Below are positions 6,091 through 43,035 of a DNA stretch of 64,000 nucleotides, in pieces; position 1 is the stretch's first letter, and each line of letters opens with the position of its first letter. The DNA is from Solibacillus sp. FSL R5-0449. GTDB taxonomy: Bacteria; Bacillota; Bacilli; Bacillales_A; Planococcaceae. A model generated the notes under the pieces. The model worked only from the letters and a program-made list of their open reading frames with translations. It had not been told where the DNA came from and did not search any database. A program made the position numbers and the translations under genes. The stretch is taken from positions 1,526,001 to 1,590,000 of the forward strand of contig NZ_CP150239.1 in assembly GCF_037975215.1 (NCBI RefSeq). Direction: 5' to 3'.

Positions 6091-6639
6091 ATGTTCTTTT
6101 ATGAAGTAGATAATGAAATACAATTAAAATTAATTACACAAAATGATGCAGAAGAAATCTTTGCTTTCATTGACCGTTCACGTGATTATTTACGTGAGTG
6201 GCTTGGTTGGGTAGATAATACGAAGACTGTTGAAGATACACGTGATTTTGCCGCGATGAATTTAAATAAATTCGCAAAGCGTGAAGGTTTGGATACAGCG
6301 ATTTTTTATAAAGGGCAATTTGTCGGGAAAGTATCGATTAATACGATTAACTGGTCTCTGAAAAAATGCGAGATCGGCTATTTTTTAGATGAAGGATATC
6401 AAGGGGAAGGCATTATGACACGTGCTGTAAAAGGCATCATTGATATCGCCTTCAACGAATATAAGCTTGGAAAAGTCGAAATTCATGCTGCTGTTAACAA
6501 TACGAAAAGCCGTCATATTGCGGAGCGTCTTGGTTTTATGCATGAAGGAACAATCCGTCAGGCGGAATGGCTGTACAATCATTATGTCGATCATGCGGTC
6601 TATGGTCTGTTGAAAGATGAATGGGTTGGAGAATATTAA
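6091..6639 (+). CDS. GNAT acetyltransferase, RimJ/RimL (YdaF-like) type
   Basis: 182 aa, the usual length for the family. The acetyl-CoA binding region is recognisable as EIGYFLDEGYQGEGIMTRAV (about residues 96-115), and ANNTKSRHIAERLGF-type motif B follows (here VNNTKSRHIAERLGF). The first half contains REWLGWVDNT, typical of RimL/YdaF proteins that acetylate N-termini or small-molecule amines. ATG start with GGAGAG a few bases upstream. The gene stands alone; an IS1182-family element sits immediately behind its stop codon and may have replaced its own terminator. Confidence 0.85.
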   Translation: MFFYEVDNEIQLKLITQNDAEEIFAFIDRSRDYLREWLGWVDNTKTVEDTRDFAAMNLNKFAKREGLDTAIFYKGQFVGKVSINTINWSLKKCEIGYFLDEGYQGEGIMTRAVKGIIDIAFNEYKLGKVEIHAAVNNTKSRHIAERLGFMHEGTIRQAEWLYNHYVDHAVYGLLKDEWVGEY

Positions 6640-6680
6640 TAACGGGTTTCGGGGTTGGGACAGAATTAGTTCCAGTTCAC

Positions 6681-6720
6681 GCAAAAAGAGAAATTGCACA
6701 ATGCAATTTCTCTTTTTTGC
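6681..6720. terminator. Hairpin terminator inside the left IS end
   Basis: GCAAAAAGAGAAATTGC (6681-6697) pairs with the complementary GCAATTTCTC and TTTTTTGC up to 6720, loop ACAAT. T-rich on both strands, so it can stop transcription into and out of the element. Confidence 0.75.
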
Positions 6721-6749
6721 GTTTTATAAAGAAAATATTGGAAGAGGTG

Positions 6750-8318: not shown

Positions 8319-8433
8319 AGGGACACTTCTTTCGTTTGAAATTTGGTTGTAGGATACTTAAATTTTAACAGAGAATGTCCTTTTTTCATGCCTGAAATTA
8401 TGCAGAGATTTACTTGATATAGAAGAAAAATTA

Positions 8434-8537
8434 GTTGTTCGGAGTGAAGGCGGCGACTCCCAGGGGACAAGCACGTGGGAGAGACTACAGGCTCGAGCCG
8501 TGCCCCCAGGAAAGCGTCCGCCGTAACGGAGAACAAC
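8434..8537. repeat. Structured ~100-bp palindromic repeat, copy 1 (inside the IS end)
   Basis: The outer arms GTTGTTC (8434-8440) and GAACAAC (8531-8537) pair. Inside are GGCGG/CCGCC, GGGG/CCCC, GCACG/CGTGC and an apical GAG-ACTACAG-GCTC. The segments GGCGACTCC, GAGACTACAGGCTC and GGAAAGCGTCC are shared with a second copy at 53232-53331, whose outer arms differ but still pair. Similar repeats occur widely in Bacillaceae genomes as far as I recall; I know no established name or function. Confidence 0.8.
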
Positions 8538-8562
8538 GACTACATAGTAGACACATAATAAT

Positions 8563-8605
8563 AAAGCCGTTCAAACTTTACTCATCGTAAATTTGAACGG
8601 CTTTT
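8563..8605. terminator. Hairpin terminator inside the right IS end
   Basis: AAAGCCGTTCAAA (8563-8575) pairs with TTTGAACGGCTTT (8592-8604), followed by T-rich sequence. It mirrors the hairpin just inside the left end. Confidence 0.75.
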
Positions 8606-8797
8606 GATTTTGAGGCGGGTTTTGTCCCACCCCCTTTTTTTTTCGCCATAATTATATTTTCATGAAACTTTTTCCATACTCACCCAGTATAGTAATTAGA
8701 ATCTATTACATGTGAAGTCATTCGAGTCACTACATATAGCATCAAGGTACGCCAAGCAATGCTTGTAATAGAAGAAAAAGAAAGCAGGTGTGGACAA

Positions 8798-9703
8798 TTG
8801 TCACAGCCAATTGTGGAAATTAAAAATTTGAACAAAACAATCAAGGGCAAACACATTATTAAAGACTTGAACCTGGACTTTTATCCGGGTCAGATCACCG
8901 GATTTTTGGGGCCAAACGGGGCAGGCAAAACTACTACAATCCGCATGATGACGGGGTTAATGTACCCTTCAAAAGGAGAAGTAATCATCGATGGAAAACA
9001 GCTCTCGACAAATTATGAAGAAGCAATCAGTAACATTGGTGTAATCGTTGAAAACCCGGAAATGTATAAATATATGTCAGGGTATAAAAACTTGCAGCAC
9101 TTTGCCCGAATGCATAAAGGTGTAACAAAACAGCGTATTGATGAAGTTGTAGCGCAAGTTGGTCTGCAAAATCGTATTCATGAGAAAGTGAAAACGTATT
9201 CGTTAGGGATGCGTCAGCGTCTTGGACTGGCTCAGGCGATGCTGCACCGTCCAAAGTTCTTAATTTTGGATGAGCCGACAAATGGTCTGGATCCTGCCGG
9301 TATTCGTGAGTTCCGTATGTATTTACGTAAAATTGCCGCAGAAGATAATGTCGCAATCGTTGTATCGAGTCACCTTTTATCTGAAATTGAATTAATGGTA
9401 GACCGGATCGCGATTATTCAAAATGGTGAGCTCATTGATATTCGTGAACTGCAACATGTCGAGGCATCGCAATATTATATTGAAGTTGGTCAGCCGGATC
9501 AGCTCCTGGCGATGTTTGAAGAGCCGTTAACAAAAGAAAATGGCGGCTATGTCGTCAATCTGACAAAAGAAGAAGTGCCTGCACTTATTCGTAAACTAGT
9601 TGAATCGGGCATTGATCTGTATACGATCCAGCCGATTCAAAAACGTCTTGAAGATCAATTTATCGAGATGACAGGTGGAGGTGCAATCGATGCAATTCGT
9701 TAA
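8798..9703 (+). CDS. ABC transporter ATP-binding protein (BcrA/CcmA-type, ABC-2 exporter)
   Basis: About 301 aa from TTG 8798 (LSQPIVEIKNLNK), which has AGGTGTGG just upstream and gives the standard family N-terminus; an in-frame ATG at 8759 would add 13 unusual residues. Walker A is GPNGAGKTT, the signature is YSLGMRQRLGLAQAM, Walker B is FLILDEPTNGLDP, and the H-loop is SSHLL. The C-terminal accessory region (about 80 aa) is typical of bacitracin/lantibiotic or lipid exporters. It overlaps the permease gene by 14 bases, so the two form a transporter. The substrate is unknown. Confidence 0.88.
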   Translation: MSQPIVEIKNLNKTIKGKHIIKDLNLDFYPGQITGFLGPNGAGKTTTIRMMTGLMYPSKGEVIIDGKQLSTNYEEAISNIGVIVENPEMYKYMSGYKNLQHFARMHKGVTKQRIDEVVAQVGLQNRIHEKVKTYSLGMRQRLGLAQAMLHRPKFLILDEPTNGLDPAGIREFRMYLRKIAAEDNVAIVVSSHLLSEIELMVDRIAIIQNGELIDIRELQHVEASQYYIEVGQPDQLLAMFEEPLTKENGGYVVNLTKEEVPALIRKLVESGIDLYTIQPIQKRLEDQFIEMTGGGAIDAIR

Positions 9704-23228: not shown

Positions 23229-23273
23229 TTAAAGGTTGTTACAACAAAATATACTGTCATATTATGACTGTTC

Positions 23274-23306
23274 AAGACGGAATCCAACAGGGTTTCGTCT
23301 TTTGTT
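23274..23306 (+). terminator. Terminator after mhqD
   Basis: AAGACGGAATCC pairs with GGGTTTCGTCTT around AACA; T-rich tail. The small ORF 23236-23463 runs through it and is not accepted as a gene. Confidence 0.8.
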
Positions 23307-23489
23307 ATTCAATAATCGAGCCAAGATTGTGGAGGAGCATTTTTTCTTTGGGGGAGTGTTAAAAAGATGTAGATTTATAACGACAAAAGAATGGCTATAT
23401 AAGTTTTTATGCAAATTAAAGATAATACCCAGTAATCAAAAAGCCCTTATATCAAGGGTTTAGGAGACTTGCATAAAATAGTGTATAAA

Positions 23490-23582
23490 CAATGTTCAAT
23501 AAGAAAAGCGAGAAACGTTATTAAATCCTCGTTTCCCGCATTTTGGTGTATTCCCAAACTTTAATTTAGGAACGTTATTTAG
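23490..23582. repeat. Cassette-boundary module, copy 1 (minus-strand terminator plus palindrome)
   Basis: AACAATGTTC at 23490, a hairpin GCGAGAAACG (23508-23517) with CGTTTCCCGC (23530-23539), then TTCCCAAACTTTAATTTAGG and AACGTTATTTAG (23551-23582). Read on the minus strand the hairpin is followed by T-rich sequence and should terminate the gene at 23638. Nearly the same module recurs at 28528-28620 behind another minus-strand gene. Confidence 0.75.
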
Positions 23583-23637
23583 ATTTATTTTGCATATTTT
23601 ATAAAACCTTGTTGCGTTTAGTTAAAGGTAATATTTC

Positions 23638-24060
23638 TTATTGAGATAAATGTTTGTAGTCTATTATCTCAATTTCGAAACCGTGATTACATTTCTTCCT
23701 ATTAATCTTCTCACTATCACAGGACGGGGATATTCTTACCTTAACCAAATCTTCTTTAACATTTTCAACATTTTCATTAATGTCTTTTGAAGGAATCTCA
23801 ATTTTTACAGTAACATCATAGGAATGATTCTCGTTGTAAGTAATACCAACAATCCTTTTCCAGTGCCAAATAAGGCGATTATCTCCTCCATACTCTTTGA
23901 TAACTCTTTTATCAATAGTTGGGAAGATAATGTCTGAAATAATGTCCTCTGTTGTGACATACATTTCTTCTGCTTTTGGTATTGTTTCTGATTTTGCTAC
24001 TTGCATAGAAGTAAGAATAATCAATATAAATCCTAATAAGACTAAGTAATGCTTAACCAT
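23638..24060 (-). CDS. Secreted protein, DUF3888-like
   Basis: 140 aa from ATG 24060, which has GAGGTGA seven bases upstream; in-frame TTG and GTG codons just before it are less well spaced. An N-terminal hydrophobic stretch (HYLVLLGFILIILTSMQVA, then KSET) is a signal peptide or anchor. The remainder contains TTEDIISDIIFPTIDKRV and NENHSYDVTVKIEIPS, which resemble DUF3888 proteins of Bacillus; their function is unknown. Flanked by two copies of the CCAAA/TTTGG palindrome (23551 and 24159). Confidence 0.65.
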   Translation of the reverse strand: MVKHYLVLLGFILIILTSMQVAKSETIPKAEEMYVTTEDIISDIIFPTIDKRVIKEYGGDNRLIWHWKRIVGITYNENHSYDVTVKIEIPSKDINENVENVKEDLVKVRISPSCDSEKINRKKCNHGFEIEIIDYKHLSQ

Positions 24061-24158
24061 CAACACTCACCTCTGGTTTACGTTTACTCCTTATTCTTCG
24101 TATCTCTTGTTACTTTTTATTCAATAAACCTATCTCGTTAGTTGAATAAAATAAAGCA

Positions 24159-24182
24159 CTCAAAGCGTCCTTTGGGAACATT
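24159..24182. repeat. CCAAA/TTTGG palindrome, copy
   Basis: CTCAAAGCGTCCTTTGGGAA followed by CATT. It lies 99 bases 5' of the DUF3888-like gene. Member of the nine-copy family at 23.5-31.2 kb. Confidence 0.65.
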
Positions 24183-24287
24183 TCATTGAGATTCTATTTA
24201 TATGTTACCTCCATTCAGAACGAGTGAATTGAGCAGTCCTCTTTAAAATGATTTCTCGCAGTGTCTCAGAGCGTTATTTTCTAATAA

Positions 24288-24328
24288 AAACAGCGACAAA
24301 CACTGATTTACAGTGCTTGTCGCTGTTT
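24288..24328 (-). terminator. Strong terminator for the 24413 lipoprotein gene
   Basis: AAACAGCGACAAACACTG (24288-24305) pairs with CAGTGCTTGTCGCTGTTT (24311-24328), 18-bp stem with one mismatch and a 5-base loop. On the minus strand it is followed by TTTTTATT. Confidence 0.85.
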
Positions 24329-24335
24329 AAAATGT

Positions 24336-24365
24336 TACCAAGCTTTTATTTGGGAACGTTATTTT
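24336..24365. repeat. CCAAA/TTTGG palindrome, copy
   Basis: TACCAAGCTTTTATTTGGGA then ACGTTATTTT. It sits between the 3' end of the lipoprotein gene and its terminator, the same arrangement as at 23551 and 28595. Confidence 0.7.
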
Positions 24366-24412
24366 GAATGATACTGCATGTTATAACAATCTTAACTACG
24401 TAAAATCTAACT

Positions 24413-24928
24413 TTATAACGTTTCGATCATTTGAAAAATCTCTTTATAAAGACTATCTAACTCTTTTTCATTCTTTAAATAGAAATACCAAACATCTTCT
24501 CTATCGGCATCTATATCGGATAGATAAATTGTCGTATGAGAGCCATTATTTAAAGATTCCCAACGAGCCGTTTCATAGGTAGTTCCTTCGTTCGTAAACG
24601 GAAGATTCCTTTTTTCCGAATCAAAAAAGATAATAGGTATTTTAGAGTTATTATATACCTCAACAAATCTATCATTAGATGCTTCTTCAAACATCACAGG
24701 CGTTATCATCACAGCGTCAAAGTTTATTGAAATATGTACTGTATCTTCACCAAATTCATCTAAAGAAGTTGGTTCAAAATGAATTTTTTTGTTATTTAAT
24801 TCAGGAATATCACCAATTACAGCAATTTTTAAAGGTTCTCCCTCATATTTAACTTCATTATTTGAACACGCACTTAAAGTTAGTAAGAAAAAAATAGATA
24901 TAATACTTAAAATCATATTTAATCTCAT
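24413..24928 (-). CDS. Putative lipoprotein of unknown function
   Basis: 171 aa from ATG 24928 (AGGAGG seven bases upstream; the longer frame to 24952 is rejected). A short basic start, a hydrophobic core and a lipobox (LSAC) mark an extracellular lipoprotein. The body (PLKIAVIGDIPEL, FDAVMITPVMFEEAS, KIPIIFFDS) looks like a small alpha/beta domain; similar Bacillus lipoproteins are uncharacterised. Flanked by palindrome copies at 24336 and 25033, like a self-contained cassette. Confidence 0.72.
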   Translation of the reverse strand: MRLNMILSIISIFFLLTLSACSNNEVKYEGEPLKIAVIGDIPELNNKKIHFEPTSLDEFGEDTVHISINFDAVMITPVMFEEASNDRFVEVYNNSKIPIIFFDSEKRNLPFTNEGTTYETARWESLNNGSHTTIYLSDIDADREDVWYFYLKNEKELDSLYKEIFQMIETL

Positions 24929-25032
24929 CGTGATACCTCCTAAACAATACACACCCTCATATTACCATTTATGAGTTATTTTATATAGTTGCTGTTTGGG
25001 TGAATTACTATAATAATTGAAAATATAAACAT

Positions 25033-25063
25033 GCCCAAAGTATCATTTGGGAACGTTATTTAG
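25033..25063. repeat. CCCAAA/TTTGGG palindrome, best-formed copy
   Basis: GCCCAAAGTATCATTTGGGA followed by ACGTTATTTAG. The 20 bases after it (TTTAATTTGCATACTTTATA) match the flank of the copy at 23551 almost exactly, so the repeated unit extends beyond the palindrome. Confidence 0.8.
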
Positions 25064-25105
25064 GTTTAATTTGCATACTTTATAAATCATTGAGCTTCTT
25101 GTATT

Positions 25106-25441
25106 TTAATATCCATTTATTGTGAAATCGTATAAATTAAAGACAAACCACAAAAAGAGAAGAGAATTTGCTACGATGTTTAGTATGATTACAGATTTAT
25201 GAACGTGCTTTTTTTTCAAATATTTTAATATAAAATATATAAAAAGAACTTGTATCAAGAGCATAGGGATACTGAACATCAGAAAACTTACAATCTCCCC
25301 TTCATCCGTTAACATATATCCATTAAGTTCACTAAGTCTTTCTAGACTAACAAATAAATCAGAAATCATTAAAGATACCCATACAAAAATTATATTTATA
25401 ATGAAAAGTAAAAAAACAATTACTTTTGGGTGTTTATTCAA
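25106..25441 (-). CDS. Small membrane protein of unknown function
   Basis: 111 aa from TTG 25441 (LNKHPKVIVFLL), which has GGAGG eight bases upstream. The longer open frame to 25546 starts inside the palindrome region and has no ribosome binding site. Three to four hydrophobic segments: VIVFLLFIINIIFVWVSLM, SFLMFSIPMLLIQVLFIYF and SVIILNIVANSLLFLWFVF. No recognised family. Lies between palindrome copies at 25033 and 25493. Confidence 0.6.
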   Translation of the reverse strand: MNKHPKVIVFLLFIINIIFVWVSLMISDLFVSLERLSELNGYMLTDEGEIVSFLMFSIPMLLIQVLFIYFILKYLKKKHVHKSVIILNIVANSLLFLWFVFNLYDFTINGY

Positions 25442-25492
25442 AGTCTTTCCTCCTTCGAAACGCAAAACGCTCCCATTTATATCTGCATTATA

Positions 25493-25520
25493 CGTTCCCA
25501 AAGCGATGTTTGGGAATAAT
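25493..25520. repeat. CCCAAA/TTTGGG palindrome, copy
   Basis: CGTTCCCAAAGCGATGTTTG then GGAATAAT; a perfect TTCCCAAA/TTTGGGAA inverted repeat around GCGATG. Confidence 0.75.
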
Positions 25521-25551
25521 CTGCTCTTAACGTTGTAAATCCGCATTTTTC

Positions 25552-25640
25552 TGACGCTACCCCGATATGGTCCATAAATTTAGTAAATTCTAATGATACA
25601 TCGTACTTGTAATTCCGCATAAATCTGATGGGACCTCTTG
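25552..25640 (-). pseudogene. Degenerate fragment of the 30004-type gene
   Basis: On the minus strand this stretch encodes KYDVSLEFTKFMDHIGV, close to VSLEFTKFKEHIIV of the gene at 30004-30420. At DNA level AAATTTAGTAAATTCTAATG is shared exactly with 30066-30085. No start codon, signal sequence or complete C-terminus accompanies it, so it is a remnant. Confidence 0.55.
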
Positions 25641-25713
25641 ATGAATCTTTTTTGCTTTGGAATTCGTATAACAGATAAATGAAAATAATGCTAAAAAAGG
25701 AGGAAGATTGAAT

Positions 25714-26148
25714 ATGTCAAAAAAAACAGTGGTCATATTGCTTGGTGGGATATTATTTACTATAATTTTGGTATTTACTTTTCTGCAAAAGAACAACAAT
25801 GTTACAGCGGAATGGGAAGGATTTTATCTAGAACAAACAAGCAAAACAAGTTTTACGCAATACGCAATCGAATCTATTGATGGAACGCTCGAAATAAAAA
25901 ATTCATTTATACCCTCTCCCCGTATTGACGGTTCTACTAAAGAAGATTTCAACAAGGATATTACAATCACTGAAACGAAACTAATTCCTGGGGAGTATAA
26001 AAAGTACAGTGTATTAAAGAACAAAGACACTTATACAATTAAAGTAAAAGGAAATCCAAAATTCAGTTATACTTTAAATAAAGTTGCACCAAGAAAATAT
26101 ATAGGTGAAGATGGGATTGAATATTCGACTAGTTTATATTTGGAATAA
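25714..26148 (+). CDS. Membrane-anchored protein of unknown function
   Basis: 144 aa from ATG 25714; TTG 25708 in the same frame is an alternative, with AAGGAGG 10 or 4 bases upstream respectively. One N-terminal membrane segment (VVILLGGILFTIILVFTFL), then an extracellular beta-rich domain. Its end (PRKYIGEDGIEYS) resembles the end of the 30004 protein (IVDADGMEYIRK), suggesting distant paralogy. Lies between palindrome copies at 25493 and 26204. Confidence 0.65.
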   Translation: MSKKTVVILLGGILFTIILVFTFLQKNNNVTAEWEGFYLEQTSKTSFTQYAIESIDGTLEIKNSFIPSPRIDGSTKEDFNKDITITETKLIPGEYKKYSVLKNKDTYTIKVKGNPKFSYTLNKVAPRKYIGEDGIEYSTSLYLE

Positions 26149-26203
26149 CTGCCTCCCGAGAATTCACTTCCCATCGAGTAAATGAATTTAAGAAACGTAA
26201 ACA

Positions 26204-26230
26204 TTCCTAAACTGACGTTTGGTACATAAT
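26204..26230. repeat. CCAAA/TTTGG palindrome, diverged copy
   Basis: TTCCTAAACTGACGTTTGGT followed by ACATAAT. The order and spacing match the other copies although two arm bases differ. Confidence 0.55.
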
Positions 26231-26343
26231 TATCTAGTCCTGTACTCAAAATCGATAATGAATTCAAGATTGTTAAGGATTACACTTAAACTAACGAAGC
26301 ATTACTTAAAGAATTTAATAAGTTTAAAAGGGGGAGATTTGTT

Positions 26344-26757
26344 ATTATAAAAAATAATTTGCTATTACTACTATCATTGTTGGCTATATTTTTGGGAGGA
26401 TGTTCAAACAGCTTTTTTGTAAATGATACTACAATCACAAGTATTGAGATTCTGAAATTTGCAAGCGCATCACCAAGTCCAGAAGAATATAGCGAGCAAG
26501 AAGGTGAAGTTATTTCTGTCATTAAATCGAAAGAAGAAATAAAGCGAATTATAAATACGATTGAAAGAGCAGGACAAGAAAGTACAGAAAGCATGAATAT
26601 TGCATTGCCAAATCATTTAATTATATTTAAAGAAAACAAAAATGTGATCTTTACACTTGGGTATTACCCTAATATTAATAATGGTAATGATGAATTCCTT
26701 GATTTAGACAAAGATAAAATTTATAAAACCAACGCACTTAATTTAATTCAAAAGTGA
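26344..26757 (+). CDS. Putative lipoprotein with a non-canonical start codon
   Basis: 137 aa if translation begins at ATT 26344: this gives MIKNNLLLLLSLLAIFLGGC, a normal signal with basic residue and lipobox (LGGC), and puts the GGGGGAG ribosome binding site seven bases upstream. The first canonical codon, TTG 26359, is 22 bases from that site and loses the basic N-terminus. The body (INTIERAGQESTE, HLIIFKENKNVIFTLGYYP) resembles small Bacillus lipoproteins of unknown function. Either a rare ATT start is used or the start codon was lost. Confidence 0.55.
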   Translation: MIKNNLLLLLSLLAIFLGGCSNSFFVNDTTITSIEILKFASASPSPEEYSEQEGEVISVIKSKEEIKRIINTIERAGQESTESMNIALPNHLIIFKENKNVIFTLGYYPNINNGNDEFLDLDKDKIYKTNALNLIQK

Positions 26758-26811
26758 TGAATATTAATATCATCTTGTTGAACAAATAGATGTTTTTAGT
26801 TGAATAACGAT

Positions 26812-26862
26812 GTTCAACAATCTGGGCGCAATTCTGTAACAAGGATCAGCGCTTGCTTTTAT
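26812..26862 (+). terminator. Terminator-like hairpin after the 26344 gene
   Basis: TTCAACAATCTGGGCGCAAT leads into a GCGC-based hairpin closing at AGCGC and a T-rich tail. The same AACAATCTGG-GCG layout recurs after other + strand genes (27190, 33385, 38331). Confidence 0.6.
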
Positions 26863-26971
26863 TTGTAGAGGAAAATAAACCAAATTATATATAATATAAT
26901 TAAGATTGTGAAAGAAAGATTACGCTAAAACTATCGTTCAGGTTTTTTGAACAAGGACGAGGAGGTAACAT

Positions 26972-27142
26972 ATGAAATTTGTTCTATTAGGAATAGCAAT
27001 TATACTTTTTGGTATTGCCATTATATCGGCATATAGTTCAACGGGACTTGGATATTCAAGTGGAACAAAAATAGGATTTGGAATTTCTTTTTTAGGGTTA
27101 TTGATTTCAATAGGTGGGTGCTTTTTTAAATCTGAAAAATAA
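26972..27142 (+). CDS. Small membrane protein, 56 aa
   Basis: An ORF of 56 codons with an excellent ribosome binding site (GAGGAGGTAACAT before ATG 26972). It encodes two hydrophobic segments (FVLLGIAIILFGIAIISA and KIGFGISFLGLLISIGG) joined by a Gly/Ser turn, ending in FFKSEK. It has its own terminator at 27190. Unknown family. The coupling of ribosome binding site, topology and terminator supports a real gene. Confidence 0.65.
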   Translation: MKFVLLGIAIILFGIAIISAYSSTGLGYSSGTKIGFGISFLGLLISIGGCFFKSEK

Positions 27143-27189
27143 TTCTTATTGTACTTACAAAGGTGTTAATACAGTAATGGATATTCCAC

Positions 27190-27228
27190 AATCTGGACGG
27201 GATTCTTCAATAAGAAGATCGCGTTTTT
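27190..27228 (+). terminator. Terminator after the 56-aa membrane protein gene
   Basis: GGATTCTTC pairs with GAAGATC-type arm (ATTCTTCAATAAGAAGAT), extended by CGGG/CGCG, followed by TTTTT. Confidence 0.7.
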
Positions 27229-27361
27229 CCGTTATAGGCCAAATTGTTGTATAAGTAATTAGCTCTTATTTAAATTTAAATAAAATAGACAGTAGATAAA
27301 ATCGAGATCTTCGACATGTCTACCGTCTAAAGGAGACGAATAACTTTCGGCATTTTCACTC

Positions 27362-27961
27362 TCAACTGCTGGTTACGAATTTTTTTACTTCCGAAGCCTT
27401 ATTACCGTTTAATAAATGTGTCACACCATATACTTCACCTTTTCCCTTATGATTAATGGCTACGTCTAAATCATTGATAATTTGCTTCATGTAATCGAAT
27501 GCAATAAGCGTATTTTCATCAGTAGGTGCCCATTGATCAACTAAATCTGTTGATTCTATTGCTTCACCATTAGGATCTAAATGTACCGTTCGGGCAGCTT
27601 GTTTATTAGATATATAGCTGGTTAAAAGGAACAAAGTTGTATAATCTTCTTTCAATTCTTTATTTCCTTTAATTACATCGATTGGTGATTCTCTATCGAC
27701 TACTAGTGACTTCAAATAATACTCGAAACCTTCATCGTTATTTGCTTTTTTCAATTTTGGGTCGTTCAACGGTTCGGAAAGTAATACGTTCATCTTTGAA
27801 ACCCATTCTTTAATTTCAGCATGATAAATTTGAGATTCAGATGCTTCTACAATGTTTCTATTTGTTGCTTCATCTTCGTCACTTGAAAATTTAAGGACCC
27901 CACTGAGTGTAACCATAGTTATAACGACAATAGCAGAACCGAATAAAATTTTTGTTTTCAT
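27362..27961 (-). CDS. Membrane-anchored or secreted protein of unknown function
   Basis: 199 aa, ATG 27961 with AAAGGAG eight bases upstream. Residues 5-24 are hydrophobic (ILFGSAIVVITMVTLSGVL) and act as signal or anchor. The rest is a soluble, mostly helical acidic domain (YHAEIKEWVSKMNVLLSEP, EDYTTLFLLTSYISNKQA, AFDYMKQIINDLDVAINH). No family recognised. Single gene, no operon partner. Confidence 0.65.
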   Translation of the reverse strand: MKTKILFGSAIVVITMVTLSGVLKFSSDEDEATNRNIVEASESQIYHAEIKEWVSKMNVLLSEPLNDPKLKKANNDEGFEYYLKSLVVDRESPIDVIKGNKELKEDYTTLFLLTSYISNKQAARTVHLDPNGEAIESTDLVDQWAPTDENTLIAFDYMKQIINDLDVAINHKGKGEVYGVTHLLNGNKASEVKKFVTSS

Positions 27962-28167
27962 GCATAAACTCCTTTCCCTAACAAAGTTAGTATGACCAAG
28001 AATCGCGAGACAAAATTCAATTCTTCCATAAATTAAATGCTTTCTTCTCTATTCTTTATTTCTATGTGATTAGTATAGAAGGAATACTCTAAAATCTGAG
28101 CGGATTGTTCAAATTCTATGGCTATTTCTTGTTTAAAATATATCTATATTGTACCGGAATCTATTAT

Positions 28168-28371
28168 CTAATTTCCAACTTCATTAATAATTACTTCTTT
28201 ATCAACATCAGGGGACTTACTTTCAACAACTAAAAAACTCTCTTCAAAATAAATCCAATAAATTAAAAAAAATAATATAACCATAAAACCAATACCCAAT
28301 ACTTTAAGTGTTTGTTTTTTTACAGCTCTAATTTCTCCTTGAATCAATTTCTCACTATTTAAGTTATTCAT
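28168..28371 (-). CDS. Small single-pass membrane protein
   Basis: 67 aa. A charged N-terminus of about 22 residues, one membrane segment (VLGIGFMVILFFLIYWIYF) and an acidic 23-residue tail. The ribosome binding site (GTGGG) is weak, so confidence is moderate. No known family. Confidence 0.45.
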   Translation of the reverse strand: MNNLNSEKLIQGEIRAVKKQTLKVLGIGFMVILFFLIYWIYFEESFLVVESKSPDVDKEVIINEVGN

Positions 28372-28527
28372 TTAGAACCCACTTAAGACTCTAACCTAAC
28401 AGGGTTACAAGTCTCAAACGTGAAAATTAAAAAACATATTTCGCAAGAATAAGTAGAAAAACAATGCCGAACGTTTAATTAGAATGGTTTTTATGGAATT
28501 AAAGTTCTTCCACAATAAAATCACGAA

Positions 28528-28620
28528 TAAACAATGTTCGATAAGAAAAGCGAGAAACGTTATTATATCAACGTTTCCCGCTTTTTAGTGTATATCCAAA
28601 CTTTCATTTGGAAACGTTAT
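28528..28620. repeat. Cassette-boundary module, copy 2
   Basis: AACAATGTTC, hairpin GCGAGAAACG (28550-28559) with CGTTTCCCGC (28572-28581), then TCCAAACTTTCATTTGGAAA and CGTTAT (28595-28620). Near-identical to 23490-23582. On the minus strand the hairpin terminates the gene at 28650. Confidence 0.75.
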
Positions 28621-28649
28621 CTGAAAACAACTTGTATAAATTGGAACTG

Positions 28650-29051
28650 TTATTCATTAGACGACTCGACTTTAGAGATTACTCCACTATAAATTGCTTT
28701 CCAGCTACCGTCGTTTTCTATTTCAGCTTGATATAATTCTAGAGTACCTTTATATAAATGCCCTTCAACATCTTTTTTAAATTCGAAAAACTCAGGTTGT
28801 TGTCTTAATTCATCTAAGTTGGCATAATATACTTCCGTTTTATAAATAGGTAATCCAGAAGGTGTGTGTAAATTTTCTTCGGTAGTTAAGTAGGAAACAC
28901 CTTGGGCATCTAAAACTGTTAGAACCTCCGTAGAATAACTGTCATCCTTTAACTCTTTCAACTGTGTAATTGCATAAACATTATTTGAAAATGTAAAAAT
29001 ACCACAAGCCACTACTGCCGATAATAATAATAAACTTAATTTCTTTTTCAC
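28650..29051 (-). CDS. Secreted protein of unknown function
   Basis: 133 aa from GTG 29051, seven bases after GGAGGTG; the preceding TTG 29054 is too close. A typical Sec signal peptide (KKKLSLLLLSAVVACGIF, cleavage likely after NNVYA). The mature part of about 105 residues has the look of a small alpha/beta domain (LTVLDAQGVSYLTTEENL, AIYSGVISKVES). Unknown family. Flanked by palindrome copies at 28595 and 29112. Confidence 0.65.
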   Translation of the reverse strand: MKKKLSLLLLSAVVACGIFTFSNNVYAITQLKELKDDSYSTEVLTVLDAQGVSYLTTEENLHTPSGLPIYKTEVYYANLDELRQQPEFFEFKKDVEGHLYKGTLELYQAEIENDGSWKAIYSGVISKVESSNE

Positions 29052-29111
29052 CAATATCCACCTCCCAATAATTGTATATATCTATATTCCACTAGATAGA
29101 TTCAAAAACCT

Positions 29112-29138
29112 TCTCAAAGCAGAATTTGGTACATTTAT
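29112..29138. repeat. CCAAA/TTTGG palindrome, diverged copy
   Basis: TCTCAAAGCAGAATTTGGTA followed by CATTTAT, 60 bases 5' of the secreted-protein gene. Confidence 0.5.
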
Positions 29139-29297
29139 TGTATTTGAAATGTGTGGTTACAGAAGCTTAGTTACTCCTTCTTTCAACTGTGCGCTTTCTT
29201 GAATAAAAGAATTGGCCCTGTATGCGTTTTAAATTAACAGACAATATTTTGTAACTTTACTTTGAAAATGTCGACTAATTTAAAAAGGAGACATTTT

Positions 29298-29795
29298 ATG
29301 AATAATTTAATTCGATTGGGATTTTCATTAATGATGTTATTCACATTATTAGGTTGTAGTAATGTCGAAGAAGAGACATCTAAAAGTATTAGTAATAGCA
29401 ATATAATCACAGAGTCAAATAATCGTGAAAAACCACCAGCTATAAACTTAAAAATTGGCGAAAATGAGATTAAAACTTACCGTGGAACTTATAGTTGGAG
29501 TTATTTTGATAAAAGTACAGGGCAAGTAGTAACTGTGGAGGCAGATCATGCTCCCCCAAACGAGATGATGAATATCGAACAAGGAGTTAGTGTTAATCTG
29601 GCCGAAACTATAAAATTAGATTTTGAAAAAGAACCAACTCAATATGAGATAAGAGTCTGGGACAATAATAATGTGATTGCAACGTATAATACATTTGAAG
29701 AAATAAAAGAAAAAGGGAAATATATAGTTGAAATAGTAGGAACATGGGAAGGTAGTACCGCTACTTATGTAACTGCCTTTGATATTCAATATTAA
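29298..29795 (+). CDS. Putative lipoprotein of unknown function
   Basis: 165 aa from ATG 29298 (AAGGAGA upstream; the longer frame to 29262 is rejected because it would put basic residues before the signal). Lipobox LLGC at Cys20. A Ser/Asn-rich linker leads to a domain with YRGTYSWSYFDKSTGQVV and EADHAPPNEM, similar to uncharacterised Bacillus lipoproteins. Single gene; a remnant of the recurrent hairpin (GGGCGCGATTCT) lies downstream at 29857. Confidence 0.7.
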   Translation: MNNLIRLGFSLMMLFTLLGCSNVEEETSKSISNSNIITESNNREKPPAINLKIGENEIKTYRGTYSWSYFDKSTGQVVTVEADHAPPNEMMNIEQGVSVNLAETIKLDFEKEPTQYEIRVWDNNNVIATYNTFEEIKEKGKYIVEIVGTWEGSTATYVTAFDIQY

Positions 29796-29945
29796 TTAGA
29801 TAATGTTACACTCTAATCTCAGATATTAAATTAATGATTCTTAGTTATTCAATTAAAGGGCGCGATTCTATGAAAAGAAATTGTGACTTTTATAGTTTCC
29901 ACCATAAAAATGGTAAAAATGCTTAGTTGGGTTTCTAAAAATAAC

Positions 29946-29981
29946 GAAAGCCAGTATCTTTAAAAGGATTACTGGCTTTAT
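29946..29981. terminator. Terminator between convergent genes
   Basis: AAGCCAGTA and TACTGGCTT pair around TCTTTAAAAGGAT; T- and A-rich on both sides, so it can serve both the 29298 and 30004 genes. Confidence 0.7.
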
Positions 29982-30003
29982 TATCAACTATAATTCGTTT
30001 CGA

Positions 30004-30420
30004 TTATAAGGGCTTTGCCTTACGAATGTATTCCATTCCATCGGCATCCACAATGATATGTTCTTTAAATTTAGTAAATTCTAATGAAACACCGTCATCA
30101 GCTGTAATAATATATTTATCATCTTTGACTTCTACCTTAGCATTAGTATATTCTCTCTCAACATGGGAACTTTCCATATCTTCAGTTACTACAACCTTGT
30201 CAAGAATACTCTTTCTATCATCATTTACAAAAGTTCCATTAATTGTGAGTTCATTTTCATCCAAATAAATCATATATCGTTCGCTTTGATAATAATGTGA
30301 TTCAAAATCCTCAGCTTTTGCAACATTTTCAAGATTATTTGATGAACCTTGTTGATCACCTCCAAATAGCATTAAAGCGCAGCCAATACTAAGCATTGCT
30401 AACGAAAGTATTTTTTTCAT
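30004..30420 (-). CDS. Membrane-anchored protein of unknown function
   Basis: 138 aa from ATG 30420 (GGAGGG seven bases upstream). An N-terminal hydrophobic segment contains a Cys (LSIGCALMLFGG) but not a proper lipobox, so a signal anchor is more likely than lipid attachment. The extracellular part ends in VSLEFTKFKEHIIVDADGM then EYIRK. A degenerate copy of this region lies at 25552-25640, and the 25714 protein has a related end, so this is a small local paralogue family. Confidence 0.65.
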   Translation of the reverse strand: MKKILSLAMLSIGCALMLFGGDQQGSSNNLENVAKAEDFESHYYQSERYMIYLDENELTINGTFVNDDRKSILDKVVVTEDMESSHVEREYTNAKVEVKDDKYIITADDGVSLEFTKFKEHIIVDADGMEYIRKAKPL

Positions 30421-30600
30421 AAATTTCCCTCCCAATTTTTTAAAGTTAATTAGTCAATTTTATCAATCTAATTAGTTATACGGAAAAGAATACATGAAAG
30501 TTTCAATTTTCTGAATTCAAAACATAAATAGCACTTTAAGAACAACGGAACGCCTTTTAAATGTGTCCCTAAAGCGTTTATTAAATGTGGTAACGGATTT

Positions 30601-31077
30601 TTAATTCATCGTAAAAATAATGTCTTGCTGAAGTTTTGGTTTCACTTTTACATACTTCATTTCAATAATAGGACCAGTATTAACTAGGAGATAAGCGTTT
30701 TCAAATTCAAAAACAAGCGACCTTAAAATTTCATAATTTGTGTCTTTATAACCATAACCAATGACTTGATTAATGTTATTGTCATCAAAGCTGAATCTAG
30801 AATCAAGTATAAAATAATCGTTAGAAATAATTGGTTCTGTTGTAAACTTTAATGGTTCAGGAGTTTGTTGTTCATGAATGATTAATAAATCTTGTCCTTT
30901 GGCATCTTCAGACCATTCTAATCGCCAATACCAACTTTCCGATGTAACAGGATTTTTTAGGTTAATCACAAATTCACTAGATGTAAGTTCTAATTTCTCA
31001 TTAATAAAAAGTTGGTGTGCATAGATTCCTACAATTAAACAATTCTTTATATGTTTTTTAACGTGGCTTTGATTCAT
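30601..31077 (-). CDS. Protein of unknown function
   Basis: 158 aa from ATG 31077 (AAGGAGC about eight bases upstream). The longer open frame to 31158 starts within a palindrome copy and is rejected. A short hydrophobic region at residues 12-22 (NCLIVGIYAHQLF) is probably not a signal. Beta-rich with several aromatic residues (SESWYWRLEWSED, DYFILDSRFSFDD). No recognised family. Bounded on its 5' side by the palindrome at 31125. Confidence 0.6.
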   Translation of the reverse strand: MNQSHVKKHIKNCLIVGIYAHQLFINEKLELTSSEFVINLKNPVTSESWYWRLEWSEDAKGQDLLIIHEQQTPEPLKFTTEPIISNDYFILDSRFSFDDNNINQVIGYGYKDTNYEILRSLVFEFENAYLLVNTGPIIEMKYVKVKPKLQQDIIFTMN

Positions 31078-31124
31078 GAATCCTGCTCCTTTTGTTAAAC
31101 CATATTTAAATAAAATTTTAACAT

Positions 31125-31150
31125 TACCAAAGCGACATTTGGGAGTTGTA
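31125..31150. repeat. CCAAA/TTTGG palindrome, copy
   Basis: TACCAAAGCGACATTTGGGA followed by GTTGTA. Last copy of the nine-copy family in the window. Confidence 0.7.
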
Positions 31151-31318
31151 CTTATCAAATTTTATAATGCAAAGGTTTTTAATGTGGCAATAATTGGAGA
31201 TTCATATAAGATATAGTTTATAGAGTCTATAACCTGGCGGAATTACTGCAAAAAAATACGTCTACGAAATTAAATGGGCAAGTACTAAAGAAAGTTTATG
31301 AATTTTAGGGGGTATTTT

Positions 31319-31759
31319 ATGTTTGTTGTAAATGTAGAAGGGGCAATTCGTCGCAATGAGAAATGGCTTTTAATCCGCAGAAGTGAAAAGGAAGAGCATG
31401 CTGGTGGTGGTCTCTCATTAGTAGGAGGGAAGTGTGAAATTGAAGGTAATTCGTCAGATATTCTGGAAAGAACTTTAAAACGAGAAATTTTTGAAGAAGT
31501 AGGTAGCGAAATTACAGGCATTCAATATGTAAATAGCTCCTCCTTCGTGACAGAATCAGGGATAAATGTGATCGATATTGTTTTCCTATGTCATCATAAA
31601 TGTGGAGAACCTTATGCTAAAAGTACTGAAGAAGTGGATGATGTTATTTGGATGACTACATCAGAGATTCTTGCACATACGGAACTACCTTTATTTCTAA
31701 AAGAAAACATTAAACTTGCAGAGAAAATACTACAGGATAATTTGCAGGTGAAATATTAG
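31319..31759 (+). CDS. Nudix hydrolase
   Basis: 146 aa from ATG 31319 with GGGGG seven bases upstream. The Nudix region reads GGKCEIEGNSSDILERTLKR followed by EIFEEVG. The REIFEEVG half is canonical, while the first half is about four residues longer than the standard GX5EX7REUXEEXGU spacing. Family members hydrolyse nucleoside diphosphates linked to another moiety. Single gene in the accessory region. Confidence 0.78.
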   Translation: MFVVNVEGAIRRNEKWLLIRRSEKEEHAGGGLSLVGGKCEIEGNSSDILERTLKREIFEEVGSEITGIQYVNSSSFVTESGINVIDIVFLCHHKCGEPYAKSTEEVDDVIWMTTSEILAHTELPLFLKENIKLAEKILQDNLQVKY

Positions 31760-31920
31760 CTTAGTGGAAATATTAAGATTGAAGATCAACTACATTATCA
31801 AAACACGTTAATAAAAAGTAAATTTAATAAGATTATTTAACTGACCAACTAATAATAAATTTTGCTTAGGAACGAGATTTTATCGGAAATGAACTAGATA
31901 TTGTGAAACATTAAAATAGG

Positions 31921-31957
31921 TAAGAGCTATCCACAAAAGTTTGTAGGATAGCTCTTA
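31921..31957. terminator. Bidirectional hairpin between Nudix and coat protein genes
   Basis: TAAGAGCTATCC (31921-31932) pairs perfectly with GGATAGCTCTTA (31946-31957). Modest T-run; lies downstream of both convergent genes. Confidence 0.6.
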
Positions 31958-31989
31958 GTATTGCAAAACTTAAGCGTGTAAATTTCTAT

Positions 31990-32361
31990 TTAGGCAACTC
32001 TTAAAGCTAGTTGAGCTAATAGTTGGATAGCTGCTTGAACTACTACATCAATTTTAACTTCGGTTTGTCTTACAGTGATTGCATCAGAGTCAATAATAGT
32101 AACGTTTTGAATTTCAGTTTGAGTAACTTCTAAATTTTGAGCTATTCTTTGAAGATTGCTTATATCAGCATTTTCATTGGAGCCTAAAACTACAACGGCA
32201 GCTTCGATAGCAGCTTGTAGGGCAGCTTGAACTACCACAAGACCTTGAACTTCCGTTTGAGTTACGTCAACAGTATGAGAATTTTGAATAAATAATCCTT
32301 GATTTTGAGTTTGAATTACTTCTAGATTATCTTCAGTGTTTTGGTTTCCAGTAACCGGCAT
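31990..32361 (-). CDS. Spore coat protein, CotX/CotV family
   Basis: 123 aa with two copies of the Coat_X-type repeat: DVTQTEVQGLVVVQAALQAA (first) and TVRQTEVKIDVVVQAAIQLL (second), plus two further partial QTQ/QTE units. This Val/Gln/Ala-rich pattern is characteristic of insoluble-fraction coat proteins of Bacillus spores. ATG 32361 has AAAGGAGATGA upstream. A SigK-like promoter precedes it, as expected for a late mother-cell coat gene. It shows that the organism sporulates. Confidence 0.85.
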   Translation of the reverse strand: MPVTGNQNTEDNLEVIQTQNQGLFIQNSHTVDVTQTEVQGLVVVQAALQAAIEAAVVVLGSNENADISNLQRIAQNLEVTQTEIQNVTIIDSDAITVRQTEVKIDVVVQAAIQLLAQLALRVA

Positions 32362-32402
32362 AAATAATCATCTCCTTTCGGGTTTAATTGGTATTACGTC
32401 AC

Positions 32403-32433
32403 TAGATTATGCTTTAGTTGAAAAAGACTGTGG
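32403..32433 (-). promoter_or_regulatory. SigK-like promoter of the coat gene
   Basis: On the minus strand CATAATCTA (32411-32403) matches the SigK -10 consensus CATAnnnTA, with CCACA (32433-32429) 17 bases further upstream in place of the -35 element (AC core). Confidence 0.6.
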
Positions 32434-32776
32434 ACGAATATCTTAGGTAACTATGACTTTATTCAAATGGTGTTTAGCCTATTAGCCGATTAACTAGCTG
32501 CTTGAAATAATCTAGGCATTTAATTTATTAGATGAGTGTTTATATAGGTTTATGTTTAAGAGCGAGAGGAATATATTTGCCAACGTGGGTAGATATAAAA
32601 ATGTAATCGTGTATTGACGTTAAAGCAAAAGAAGTAGCTTTAAAAGTTCAGTCCTTATTTAATTAATAAGGGTGATATTATTCAATAATCGGTGCGTTTA
32701 TTGAAGGATGTAAAAATATTGTCGAGTTGTACATATGGTCTTTTTAAAGTAAGAAATTTAGACTTGGGGGATTTAT
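32434..32776. other. Gene-free stretch
   Basis: About 340 bp, AT-rich, with no ORF, hairpin or repeat that I can support. It separates the coat gene from the divergent nucleotidyltransferase pseudogene and should hold the latter's promoter. Confidence 0.5.
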
Positions 32777-33346
32777 ATGTCATTTGAACAATGCCAAAAT
32801 GTAACTTCTTTGATGGCAAAATTTAATAAAAATTGGTTCATCGCTGGAGGGTGGGCGATTGATCTTTTTATGGGGAAAGAAACAAGAGAACATAAAGATA
32901 TAGAGATTGCTATATTTCGAAAAGACCAATTAAATTTAAAGGCGTATCTAATAGAATGGGAGTTTAAGAAAGTAATTAAAAGTGAATTCCATAATTGGGG
33001 AAATGAATTTTTAGAGCTACCTATACACGAAATTCATGCTACCAATAAGTTAAATGGAGATAAAATTGAAGTACTTCTAAACGAAGCAAAAGATAATGAT
33101 TGGGAATTCAGAAGAGATTTGAGGATTTCCTTACCTCTAAATTCAATGTGGAGTTATTCTGATATGGGTATTCCTTATTTAAATCCAGAAATAGTCCTTT
33201 TATAAAAGGCGAAGAATACAAGAGAAAAAGACCATCAAGATTTTATTACAGTAAAGGACCATCTTGATTATAAGAAGAGACAATGGCTCAAATCTGCACT
33301 TGAACTTCACGAACCCGAGCACAAGTGGATTCAATTTTTAATCTAA
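32777..33346 (+). pseudogene. Nucleotidyltransferase (aminoglycoside/lincosamide adenylyltransferase-like), broken by a nonsense codon
   Basis: The first 142 codons encode a nucleotidyltransferase with GGWAIDLFMGKETREHKDIE (residues about 25-44), the usual active-site motif of this group. At codon 143 (33203-33205) TAA interrupts the frame. The same frame then continues without a stop for 46 codons to TAA 33344, encoding KAKNTREKDHQDF, DYKKRQWLKSAL and HKWIQFLI, the expected C-terminus. A single T-to-A change of a Tyr codon explains this. The shortened product would lack its last helix pair; a sequencing error is the alternative. Confidence 0.75.
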
Positions 33347-33384
33347 TATTTTTCAACTAACCAGTTAAATCATTTTCCACAAAC

Positions 33385-33421
33385 TGTGCGTGATCCTTCA
33401 AAAAGAAGATTGCGTTTTTTT
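33385..33421 (+). terminator. Terminator after the nucleotidyltransferase pseudogene
   Basis: GCGTGATCCTTC pairs with GAAGATTGCG around AAAAA; seven T follow. Same style as 27190. Confidence 0.7.
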
Positions 33422-33571
33422 ATGTAGTTGGGATTTTTATCATTCGCCTGGCCATTTCTTTTGCCGCGCCTTTTTTACTTTGCATAAACTTGTTTGCCAC
33501 CTATAATAAAGACAGCGATAGTAAAAAGCTTCTACATGAGGCAAACTAATCTCGTGTTAGGAGGAAATGAC

Positions 33572-42539: not shown

Positions 42540-42780
42540 GTTTAACAAATAAAAAAGCATCTCCATCCCTACTAATGTAAGGACGAAAATGCATAAATTT
42601 CCGCGGTACCACCTTTGTTCACACATAATGTGTGCAGCTTCAGCCTTTTTATCGCAAAGGATACGGTTATGTTGTCATAACGGCTCAAAAGGAGGTTCAA
42701 TTATTTCAGCGGGTTATGCCGATTTCAGCAAAGACGGCACTCTCTAAAACCTTAAAATAATTTACTTGGCTTTTTCATTG
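42540..42780 (-). ncRNA. T-box riboswitch (proline-type) of proC
   Basis: On the minus strand the leader contains the T-box/antiterminator sequence AAAGGTGGTACCGCGG (about 42616-42601), followed by a terminator stem and TTTTTT (about 42585-42546). The stem I region (AGAGAGTGCCGTC ... CGGC) ends in GAA-CCT-CC, where CCT would be the specifier codon for tRNA-Pro. It should raise proC expression when uncharged tRNA-Pro accumulates. The promoter TTGACA-17-TATAAT lies just upstream. Confidence 0.88.
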
Positions 42781-42804
42781 CCTGTAAATTTTGAATTATC
42801 CAAA

Positions 42805-42885: not shown

Positions 42886-43035
42886 CATTGCGAGCGAATC
42901 GATTACGTCTCGACGTAATTGGCGTCCAGATTTTTTGAGTTGAGACCAACAGGACGTGGGTCAGTCAGCCGTTGTCGCAGGATGCGGTGTTTTAGGCTGA
43001 CTTCCTCTTAAATTCCTCTTAAATTCCTTTTAAAA
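42886..43035. repeat. Possible dispersed structured repeat
   Basis: A GC-richer block in an AT-rich gap. It contains AGTCAGCC (42963-42970) paired with GGCTGACT (42995-43002) around GTTGTCGCAGGATGCGGTGT, an inverted TTACGTC/GACGTAA at about 42903, and then a 12-bp tandem repeat (CCTCTTAAATT units, 43004-43030). Sequences like CAGTCAGCCGTTGTCGCAGG seem familiar from Lysinibacillus-group intergenic regions, but this is memory, not a search. No gene is present. Confidence 0.4.

Follow-up and report, generated by a model that had tools for sequence, protein, structure and literature searches.

Palindromic sites with two spacer classes as candidate boundaries of exchangeable gene modules in Solibacillus sp. 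FSL R5-0449 and related genomes

A 64-kb stretch of the 3.58-Mb genome of Solibacillus sp. FSL R5-0449 (G000:C1:1526001-1590000, hereafter the window) harbors an accessory region in which small genes are separated by copies of a short palindrome. We regard these palindromes as probable core sites for site-specific recombination, by which single-gene modules would be moved, a reading suggested by the site sequences and their comparison among relatives. It is based on two spacer classes, a fixed gene polarity, homology junctions at the sites, including one inside a spacer, and the co-occurrence of a tyrosine recombinase. An earlier reading of the window from its letters alone (the sequence-only reading) had proposed exchangeable cassettes with the palindromes as boundary sites, and our data regarding homology ends and junctions were in agreement with this proposal.

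Palindromic sites, spacer classes and homology junctions

The site core reads CCCAAA-N6-TTTGGG and has a better conserved arm, AACGTTAT, on one side (173 sites scoring at least 16 bits). Orientation was called from the arms alone and spacers were sorted into classes afterwards. Class A comprised CTTTGA, CTTTCA, GTGTCA and similar spacers, class B comprised CGTCGC, CATCGC, GGACGC and similar ones, and 42 of the 173 sites belonged to neither. Pairs were evaluated among classed neighbouring sites 100-2500 bp apart without an intervening Q element (the second type of repeat in these arrays, described below). Inverted pairs combined A with B in 39 of 39 cases and tandem pairs were of the same class in 24 of 24 (63/63 in total). 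With the class rule unchanged, a second set of loci gave 35 of 36 and 25 of 25, respectively (60/61). A typical module is 0.4-1 kb long, with class B at the 5' side of the gene, class A at its 3' side and the better conserved arms pointing inward. Among 52 distinct A/B modules, the gene ran from B to A in 42 of the 44 having an open reading frame (ORF) of at least 60 aa, so that gene orientation is constrained, in correction of the mixed orientations initially described.

In the window, the nine palindromes of the sequence-only reading were each retrieved within 1-4 nt of the position it had given (Table 1), and no further site above 13 bits was found by a score matrix over the 64 kb, in agreement with the initial description, in which none had been seen elsewhere. 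The anatomy had to be revised: a one-base spacer had been assumed, a pattern with no match in the window, and the spacer is 6 nt long. The arm said to be shared by all copies was complete in four of nine (AACGTTAT at 23553, 24337, 25034 and 28595), the other five carrying AACATT, TACATAAT and similar sequences. The single orientation reported for all copies persists as a polarity, on which two spacer classes are superimposed.

Over the whole genome, the palindrome pattern gave 13 strand matches (8+5) with up to two mismatches, versus none for a reversed control, and a near-identical pattern gave 20 versus 6 with up to three mismatches, a perfect palindrome being scored on both strands in these counts. 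Other genomic copies formed two clusters, at 1.970-1.977 Mb and at 2.795-2.798 Mb; a smaller number lie at 1.210-1.226 Mb, and the remainder are isolated. The score matrix retrieved 192 palindromes in 686 kb (loci plus window, the same loci on which it was trained) versus 3 in the reversed sequence. In the second set, 370 kb of non-training loci picked from genomes G032, G073 and G144 for containing pattern matches, it retrieved 189 versus 1.

Homology ends were enriched at the palindromes in both sets. In a first all-against-all comparison of array loci from the window's genome and five relatives (at least 85% identity, 300-4000 bp; empty-site loci L209-L215 and L025, L026 omitted), 298 matches provided 570 ends, of which 51 fell in palindromes versus 11.6 expected from their share of the sequence, 96 in Q versus 18.0, and 423 in neither. 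In the second, G032, G073 and G144, three further species of the same genus, were compared with all loci (at least 84% identity, 200-4000 bp): palindromes held 57 of 425 ends versus 13.3 expected, Q held one versus 0.8, and 367 were in neither. The enrichment at palindromes was thus about 4.3-fold in each set, for ends that are not independent, as a single junction meets several partners. Aligned junctions displayed homology on one side only, with the switch at or near the palindrome core. For strict junctions homologous on the outer side (27/51), identity at spacer bases 1-3 was 0.78, 0.85 and 0.89, versus 0.57, 0.74 and 0.65 for random same-class pairs, and at bases 4-6 it was 0.63, 0.44 and 0.70 versus 0.56, 0.54 and 0.72. 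Identity is therefore above random up to the third spacer base and equal to random afterwards.

The palindrome was also found with the disinfectant-resistance genes bcrABC, on Listeria and Exiguobacterium plasmids. A class-A site precedes bcrABC in five plasmid records (L249, L250, L252, L253 and L254). The 50 nt to its right are identical in all five and the left flanks are of four kinds, L252 and L254 sharing one. Four records have ACCAAA or TCCAAA in the core and CTTTTA as spacer, L253 has CCCAAT and GAGTTA, and one flank switch falls inside the 6-bp spacer. A 171-bp query around this site retrieved 30 plasmid records, 24 of them from Listeria. In 26 of the 30 the match (at least 94%) starts at query base 1, 43, 55 or 64, base 55 being the first of the core and base 64 the fourth of the spacer. 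A short Q-like match lies downstream of bcrABC in three of the five records. The mobility of bcrABC in Listeria plasmids has been attributed to a putative composite transposon, of IS1216 type in two plasmids, in the published account (PMC8508797), the main text of which does not contain the string 'palindrom'; the sequences compared here display a class-A palindrome with variable left flanks.

Two other plasmids deserve mention. Plasmid pSSIL1 of Solibacillus silvestris (L251; 14.9 kb), which has two integrase genes, carries a metal-transporting P-type ATPase gene and its ArsR-family regulator between a class-A palindrome and a class-B one (6594-9309). In plasmid NZ_CP060813.1 of Acinetobacter variabilis (L255), a Gram-negative host, both palindrome classes, at 4000 and 5625 and with weak Q-like matches adjoining, flank genes.

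Candidate recombinase, Q element and alternative explanations

The genome search for a linked tyrosine recombinase, recommended with the sequence-only reading, led to a 313-aa protein encoded about 140 kb from the array. A perfect-armed palindrome is located about 50 bp upstream of its gene, immediately 5' of a TATAAT box. A palindrome was found closely upstream of the recombinase start in 25 of 30 loci, this genome among them, with the core 57-88 bp 5' of the start codon in the loci measured; one of the other five, from genus g18 (L189, 3425), has a palindrome 1 kb upstream. Orthologues were found in 91 genomes of one sample of 200 and in 95 of an overlapping sample of 261, always as a single match. 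Palindrome matches occurred in every one of the 95 recombinase-bearing genomes, and none of the 58 genomes having four or more palindrome strand matches lacked the recombinase. The protein matches Pfam PF00589 (139.6 bits), and the catalytic R-K-HxxR-H-Y motifs were recognized in 30 of 30 orthologues with a loosened first motif and in 20 of 30 with a stricter one. It scores below the NCBIfam equivalog cut-offs of XerC (224.1 vs 335.15 bits) and XerD (219.5 vs 329.6), and below that of the integron integrase TIGR02249 (83.2 vs 265). By these cut-offs it is neither XerC, XerD nor an integron integrase, and its identity to a further Xer-like protein encoded in this genome is 29.5%. Its neighbourhood in this genome contains one palindrome, unrelated genes and no array; relatives were viewed to 1.5 kb.

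In the reading favored here, each site consists of a 6-bp spacer between two inverted 6-nt half-sites, flanked by arms that are partly conserved. The chromosomal tyrosine recombinase is very probably the protein that binds it, and may act on it, as suggested by the co-occurrence and the promoter copy; strand exchange would take place inside the spacer or at its edge. Since A and B spacers differ, A would recombine with A and B with B, and a double exchange, suggested by the spacer classes, would swap modules in fixed polarity, like a natural form of recombinase-mediated cassette exchange. The palindrome in the recombinase promoter region may be an autoregulatory operator because no cassette lies there in this genome, and the enzyme would then control its own expression.

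Several observations weigh against this reading. Recombination itself is deduced from sequences. The class rule was drawn up after the first-set spacers had been seen, 32 Q-free pairs in the first set and 53 in the second were left out for an unclassed spacer, and pairs spanning Q kept the rule in only three of seven classed cases in the first set and none of one in the second. Spacers vary within each class, and canonical tyrosine recombinases tolerate spacer variation badly; moreover, the inner-homologous strict junctions (16/26) gave no spacer signal above background. The class-A site of bcrABC lies 5' of the genes, contrary to the polarity of the 42 modules, and no B site was scored beside them. 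Concerning the recombinase, five of the 30 loci, all from genus g18, had no close upstream palindrome, 15 genomes without the gene carry 1-3 palindrome matches, and no palindrome was found upstream of two distant relatives (from Aneurinibacillus, 53.5% identity, and Geobacillus, 42.8%). Finally, the Fisher value for co-occurrence is too strong, because the copy in the promoter is included in the palindrome counts, usually as two matches, so that the association is partly built in, and because the 261 genomes all belong to one family, whose shared ancestry inflates such values.

Q is a 72-nt attC-like element, with arms such as ATTCAAC/GTTGAAT and an inner hairpin, that also cuts these arrays into cassettes. 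An nhmmer model built up on the same 686-kb loci gave 159 matches there, versus none in the reversed sequence. Homology switches sharply inside Q, mostly in the left arm, for which TTCAAC and TTCCAC are both common. Folding z-scores were below -5 in two of four copies and about -2 in the other two, including the window copy. Covariation between the arms was looked for but not detected (same-site complementarity 8.31 vs 8.40 at random); because the arms do not covary and the GTT core is not constant, Q was not classed as an integron. Q occurred in 46 of 80 named loci (L032-L111) around relatives of a XerA-type recombinase that many Bacillaceae have (131 matches at E<=1e-3, none in reversed sequence), and within 250 bp upstream of the XerA-type gene in 16 of them (by eye, E<=0.01). 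It was also present in 113 of 200 genomes of the family, including genera g3, g11 and g12, which are devoid of the palindrome-linked recombinase. The XerA-type protein scores 101.6 bits with TIGR02249, under its cut-off of 265, and 227.8 bits with NF040815 (XerA / integron integrase), over its cut-off of 220.

One XerA-type gene (L022:11589-12440) lies 0.8 kb from a palindrome array and was evaluated as the palindrome enzyme. This candidate was rejected: only three of the 80 relatives' loci contained the palindrome, with four sites in total versus nine in the reversed control, and only five of the 16 genomes from the window's genus among the 200 sampled have the recombinase at E<=1e-60. The XerA-type recombinase suits Q better than the palindromes. 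Q and this recombinase are a candidate second, integron-like system in Bacillota, distinct from the palindrome system although the two are interleaved here, and we think that both systems are at work in the window.

Three other explanations can be considered. The palindromes might be nothing but operators or terminators, the mosaic resulting from ordinary homologous recombination in the surrounding repeated non-coding sequence. A palindrome copy does lie in a promoter region, class-A sites stand at gene 3' sides, several arrays share a repeat of about 300 bp that ends at the palindrome, and the three copies that were folded were stabler than shuffles, albeit weakly for two window copies (z -2.4 and -2.7). 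However, separate hairpins with T-runs lie beyond the A sites, where they vary along with the outer flank from junction to junction (by eye), homology ends are enriched at the core plus 8 bp around it, the four bcrABC left flanks stop at the core, and operators would have no need of two polarity-keeping spacer classes; we therefore judge this explanation unlikely.

An even less probable possibility is that Q and its XerA-type recombinase define the mobile unit and that the palindromes merely ride inside Q cassettes. The window array starts and ends with Q-like elements (the left one recognized by eye), and the enrichment of homology ends at Q edges in the first set, the sharp switches inside Q and its occurrence without the palindrome-linked recombinase in some genera would all be in line with it. 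The loci of G032, G073 and G144 are not: in these 370 kb, ten Q elements accompany the 189 palindromes, and homology ends gather on palindromes rather than on Q. Because this second set displays palindrome junctions with hardly any Q, the palindrome system stands alone. Least probable of all, in our view, are small transposon-like elements ending in A and B palindromes and moved by another enzyme. Two distinct inward-facing ends and a fixed gene polarity would fit such elements, but modules adjoin and share sites instead of occupying scattered targets, the switch may fall inside the spacer, and the co-occurrence of the recombinase would need a separate reason. Site-specific recombination at the palindromes thus remains the explanation that we favor.

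The accessory region and its genes

The accessory region is longer than initially delimited and extends to about 33430 (Table 1). The comparison among strains proposed in the sequence-only reading supported its mobility: the flanks up to 23240 (23234 in one relative) and from 33430 onward are only 284-290 bp apart in G132, G083 and G138 (L209, L210, L211), and four other relatives (G126, G101, G013 and G048) have different contents between the same flanks. Pieces of the array were found at other loci in relatives, for example 23308-24370 in L234 (95% identity) and 28515-29159 in L233 (94% identity). The best plasmid match to the array was pSSIL1, with 82% identity over 6% of the query.

Ten cassette proteins from the window were scanned with Pfam and eight of them also with NCBIfam, and neither database named any. 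The homologue of gene 24413..24952 in L022 is flanked by one A and one B site, and the true start of gene 25106..25546 is likely downstream of the listed one. From their sequences, the products of genes 31298..31759 and 32777..33205 are presumably NUDIX-like and nucleotidyltransferase-like, respectively.

Table 1. Sites, Q elements and genes of the accessory region, with the palindrome-linked recombinase (window positions unless a contig is given; L numbers denote loci)
Feature	Position	Strand	Basis or remarks
Accessory region (cassette array), absent or replaced in relatives	23241..33430	.	flank comparison
Class A site, CCCAAA.CTTTAA.TTTAGG	23553..23570	+	pattern search and score matrix
Class B site, spacer GGACGC	24159..24176	-	pattern search and score matrix
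Class A site, spacer CTTTTA	24337..24354	+	score matrix; homology junction with L234, L244
Class A site, spacer GTATCA	25034..25051	+	pattern search and score matrix
Class B site, spacer CATCGC	25497..25514	-	pattern search and score matrix
B-like degenerate site, spacer CGTCAG	26206..26223	-	14.6 bits, under the 16-bit cut for pair counts
Class A site, spacer CTTTCA	28595..28612	+	pattern search and score matrix
Class B site, spacer TTCTGC	29113..29130	-	score matrix; homology junction with L233, L235
Class B site by spacer (TGTCGC on - strand)	31126..31143	-	score matrix gave '+'
Short attC-like element, arms without inner hairpin, array left end	23302..23333	+	by eye; not called by HMM
Q element, partial	26812..26863	+	nhmmer 30.1 bits
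Q element, full length	27182..27252	+	nhmmer 58.6 bits; covariance-model match G000:C1:1553182-1553252 (copy in the model's own alignment)
Q element, partial, array right end	33375..33420	+	nhmmer 31.2 bits
Module gene, small protein with N-terminal hydrophobic stretch	23638..24066	-	between A 23553 and B 24159; no Pfam/NCBIfam match, E<=0.001
Module gene, lipoprotein-like	24413..24952	-	between A 24337 and A 25034
Module gene, membrane protein	25106..25546	-	between A 25034 and B 25497; ORF as listed overlaps B site
Gene	25708..26148	+	between B 25497 and B 26206
Lipoprotein-like gene	26359..26757	+	between B 26206 and Q 26812
Cassette gene adjoining Q 27182	27362..27961	-	homologous stretches in L227, L216
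Small gene	28168..28371	-	homologous stretch, same neighbour, in L227 and L216
Module gene, exported-protein-like	28650..29054	-	between A 28595 and B 29113; homologous stretches in L233, L235, L245
Lipoprotein-like cassette gene	29262..29795	+	homologous stretch in L219
Small exported-protein-like gene	30004..30435	-	ORF list
Gene, listed ORF overlapping B 31126	30601..31158	-	ORF list
Gene past the region end initially given	31298..31759	+	homologous stretches at other loci in L217, L243, L247
Gene	32777..33205	+	homologous stretches at other loci in L243, L247, L236
Tyrosine recombinase gene, 313 aa, outside window	G000:C1:1700130-1701068		about 140 kb from array

A non-coding repeat of about 300 bp with a hairpin, extending from a Q half to a class-A palindrome, occupies window positions 23301-23608 and recurs in L021, L022 and L023. 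The sole match of the array to phage records was a 38-bp segment (25526-25563), 94.7% identical to the same 38 bp in two 5,009-bp records labelled as Listeria phage. We take this segment to resemble the terminal inverted repeat of Tn3-family transposons (Tn1546 type), perhaps as a solo transposon end. At the gathering threshold, Rfam gave no match inside the array; its matches elsewhere in the window were ordinary, namely a glycine riboswitch (1259-1338), a T-box leader (42576-42787) and a Bacillaceae-1 RNA (42946-43011).

Comparison with integrons and dif modules

Palindrome modules share with integrons and CALIN arrays small, mostly unknown genes in fixed polarity and a tyrosine recombinase. 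They differ from them in having short palindromes instead of attC sites and, in this genome, no array at the recombinase. The boxes of attC read RYYYAAC and GTTRRRY. The palindromes consist of CCCAAA-N6-TTTGGG with AACGTTAT-type arms and were rejected as attC sites for lack of R boxes; likewise, neither an IntI-type integrase nor cassettes at an attI site beside an integrase were found for the palindrome system. With the housekeeping XerC and XerD, the palindrome-linked recombinase has the protein superfamily in common, while scoring below both equivalog cut-offs.

XerC/XerD move the dif (pdif) modules of Acinetobacter plasmids, as described in one account (PMC13141974). These resemble the palindrome modules in having genes between inversely oriented short sites with a 6-bp spacer, in being replaced between relatives with crossovers at the sites, and in their association with an Xer-like tyrosine recombinase. 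According to the same account, the two pdif half-sites are unlike, ATTTCGTATAA for XerC and TTATGTTAAAT for XerD, they serve as binding sites for two host enzymes, and C modules alternate with D modules. In the palindrome modules the half-sites are inverted copies of one sequence instead of unlike XerC and XerD sites, the ends belong to two spacer classes with fixed polarity, and the co-occurring enzyme is a third recombinase with a palindrome upstream of its gene. Inverted sites that have a 6-bp spacer and flank a gene are common to both, and tandem same-class pairs (24 and 25 in the two sets) exist here as well. The co-occurrence points to a recombinase other than the host XerC/XerD. The palindromes therefore work like dif modules or integron sites, yet they lack defining features of both that were tested.

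Integrons have been reported as very rare in Firmicutes: in the results consulted for IntegronFinder 2.0, one complete integron, in Limnochorda pilosa, and a few CALIN were recorded (PMC9024848), and Firmicutes are listed among integron-bearing phyla in a review (PMC8618304). A dedicated cassette system with short, searchable sites makes it testable how Firmicutes gain and shuffle small accessory genes. It would also account for the variation at the left edge of bcrABC in Listeria plasmids, and two heterospecific site classes that keep polarity would be a naturally occurring version of an engineered principle and might supply new recombination tools. No published description of such a palindrome system was found in the literature searched, which left most subscription papers outside, and it is apparently undescribed so far. 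We give even chances to the broader proposal of a third bacterial cassette platform besides integrons and dif modules. In this platform a chromosomal tyrosine recombinase, inherited vertically and probably under the control of its own site, would swap genes between dispersed arrays in fixed polarity through two heterospecific palindrome classes. Plasmids of Listeria and other genera would have received at least one resistance cassette, bcrABC, from this platform, which in some species would be interleaved with a second, integron-like system.

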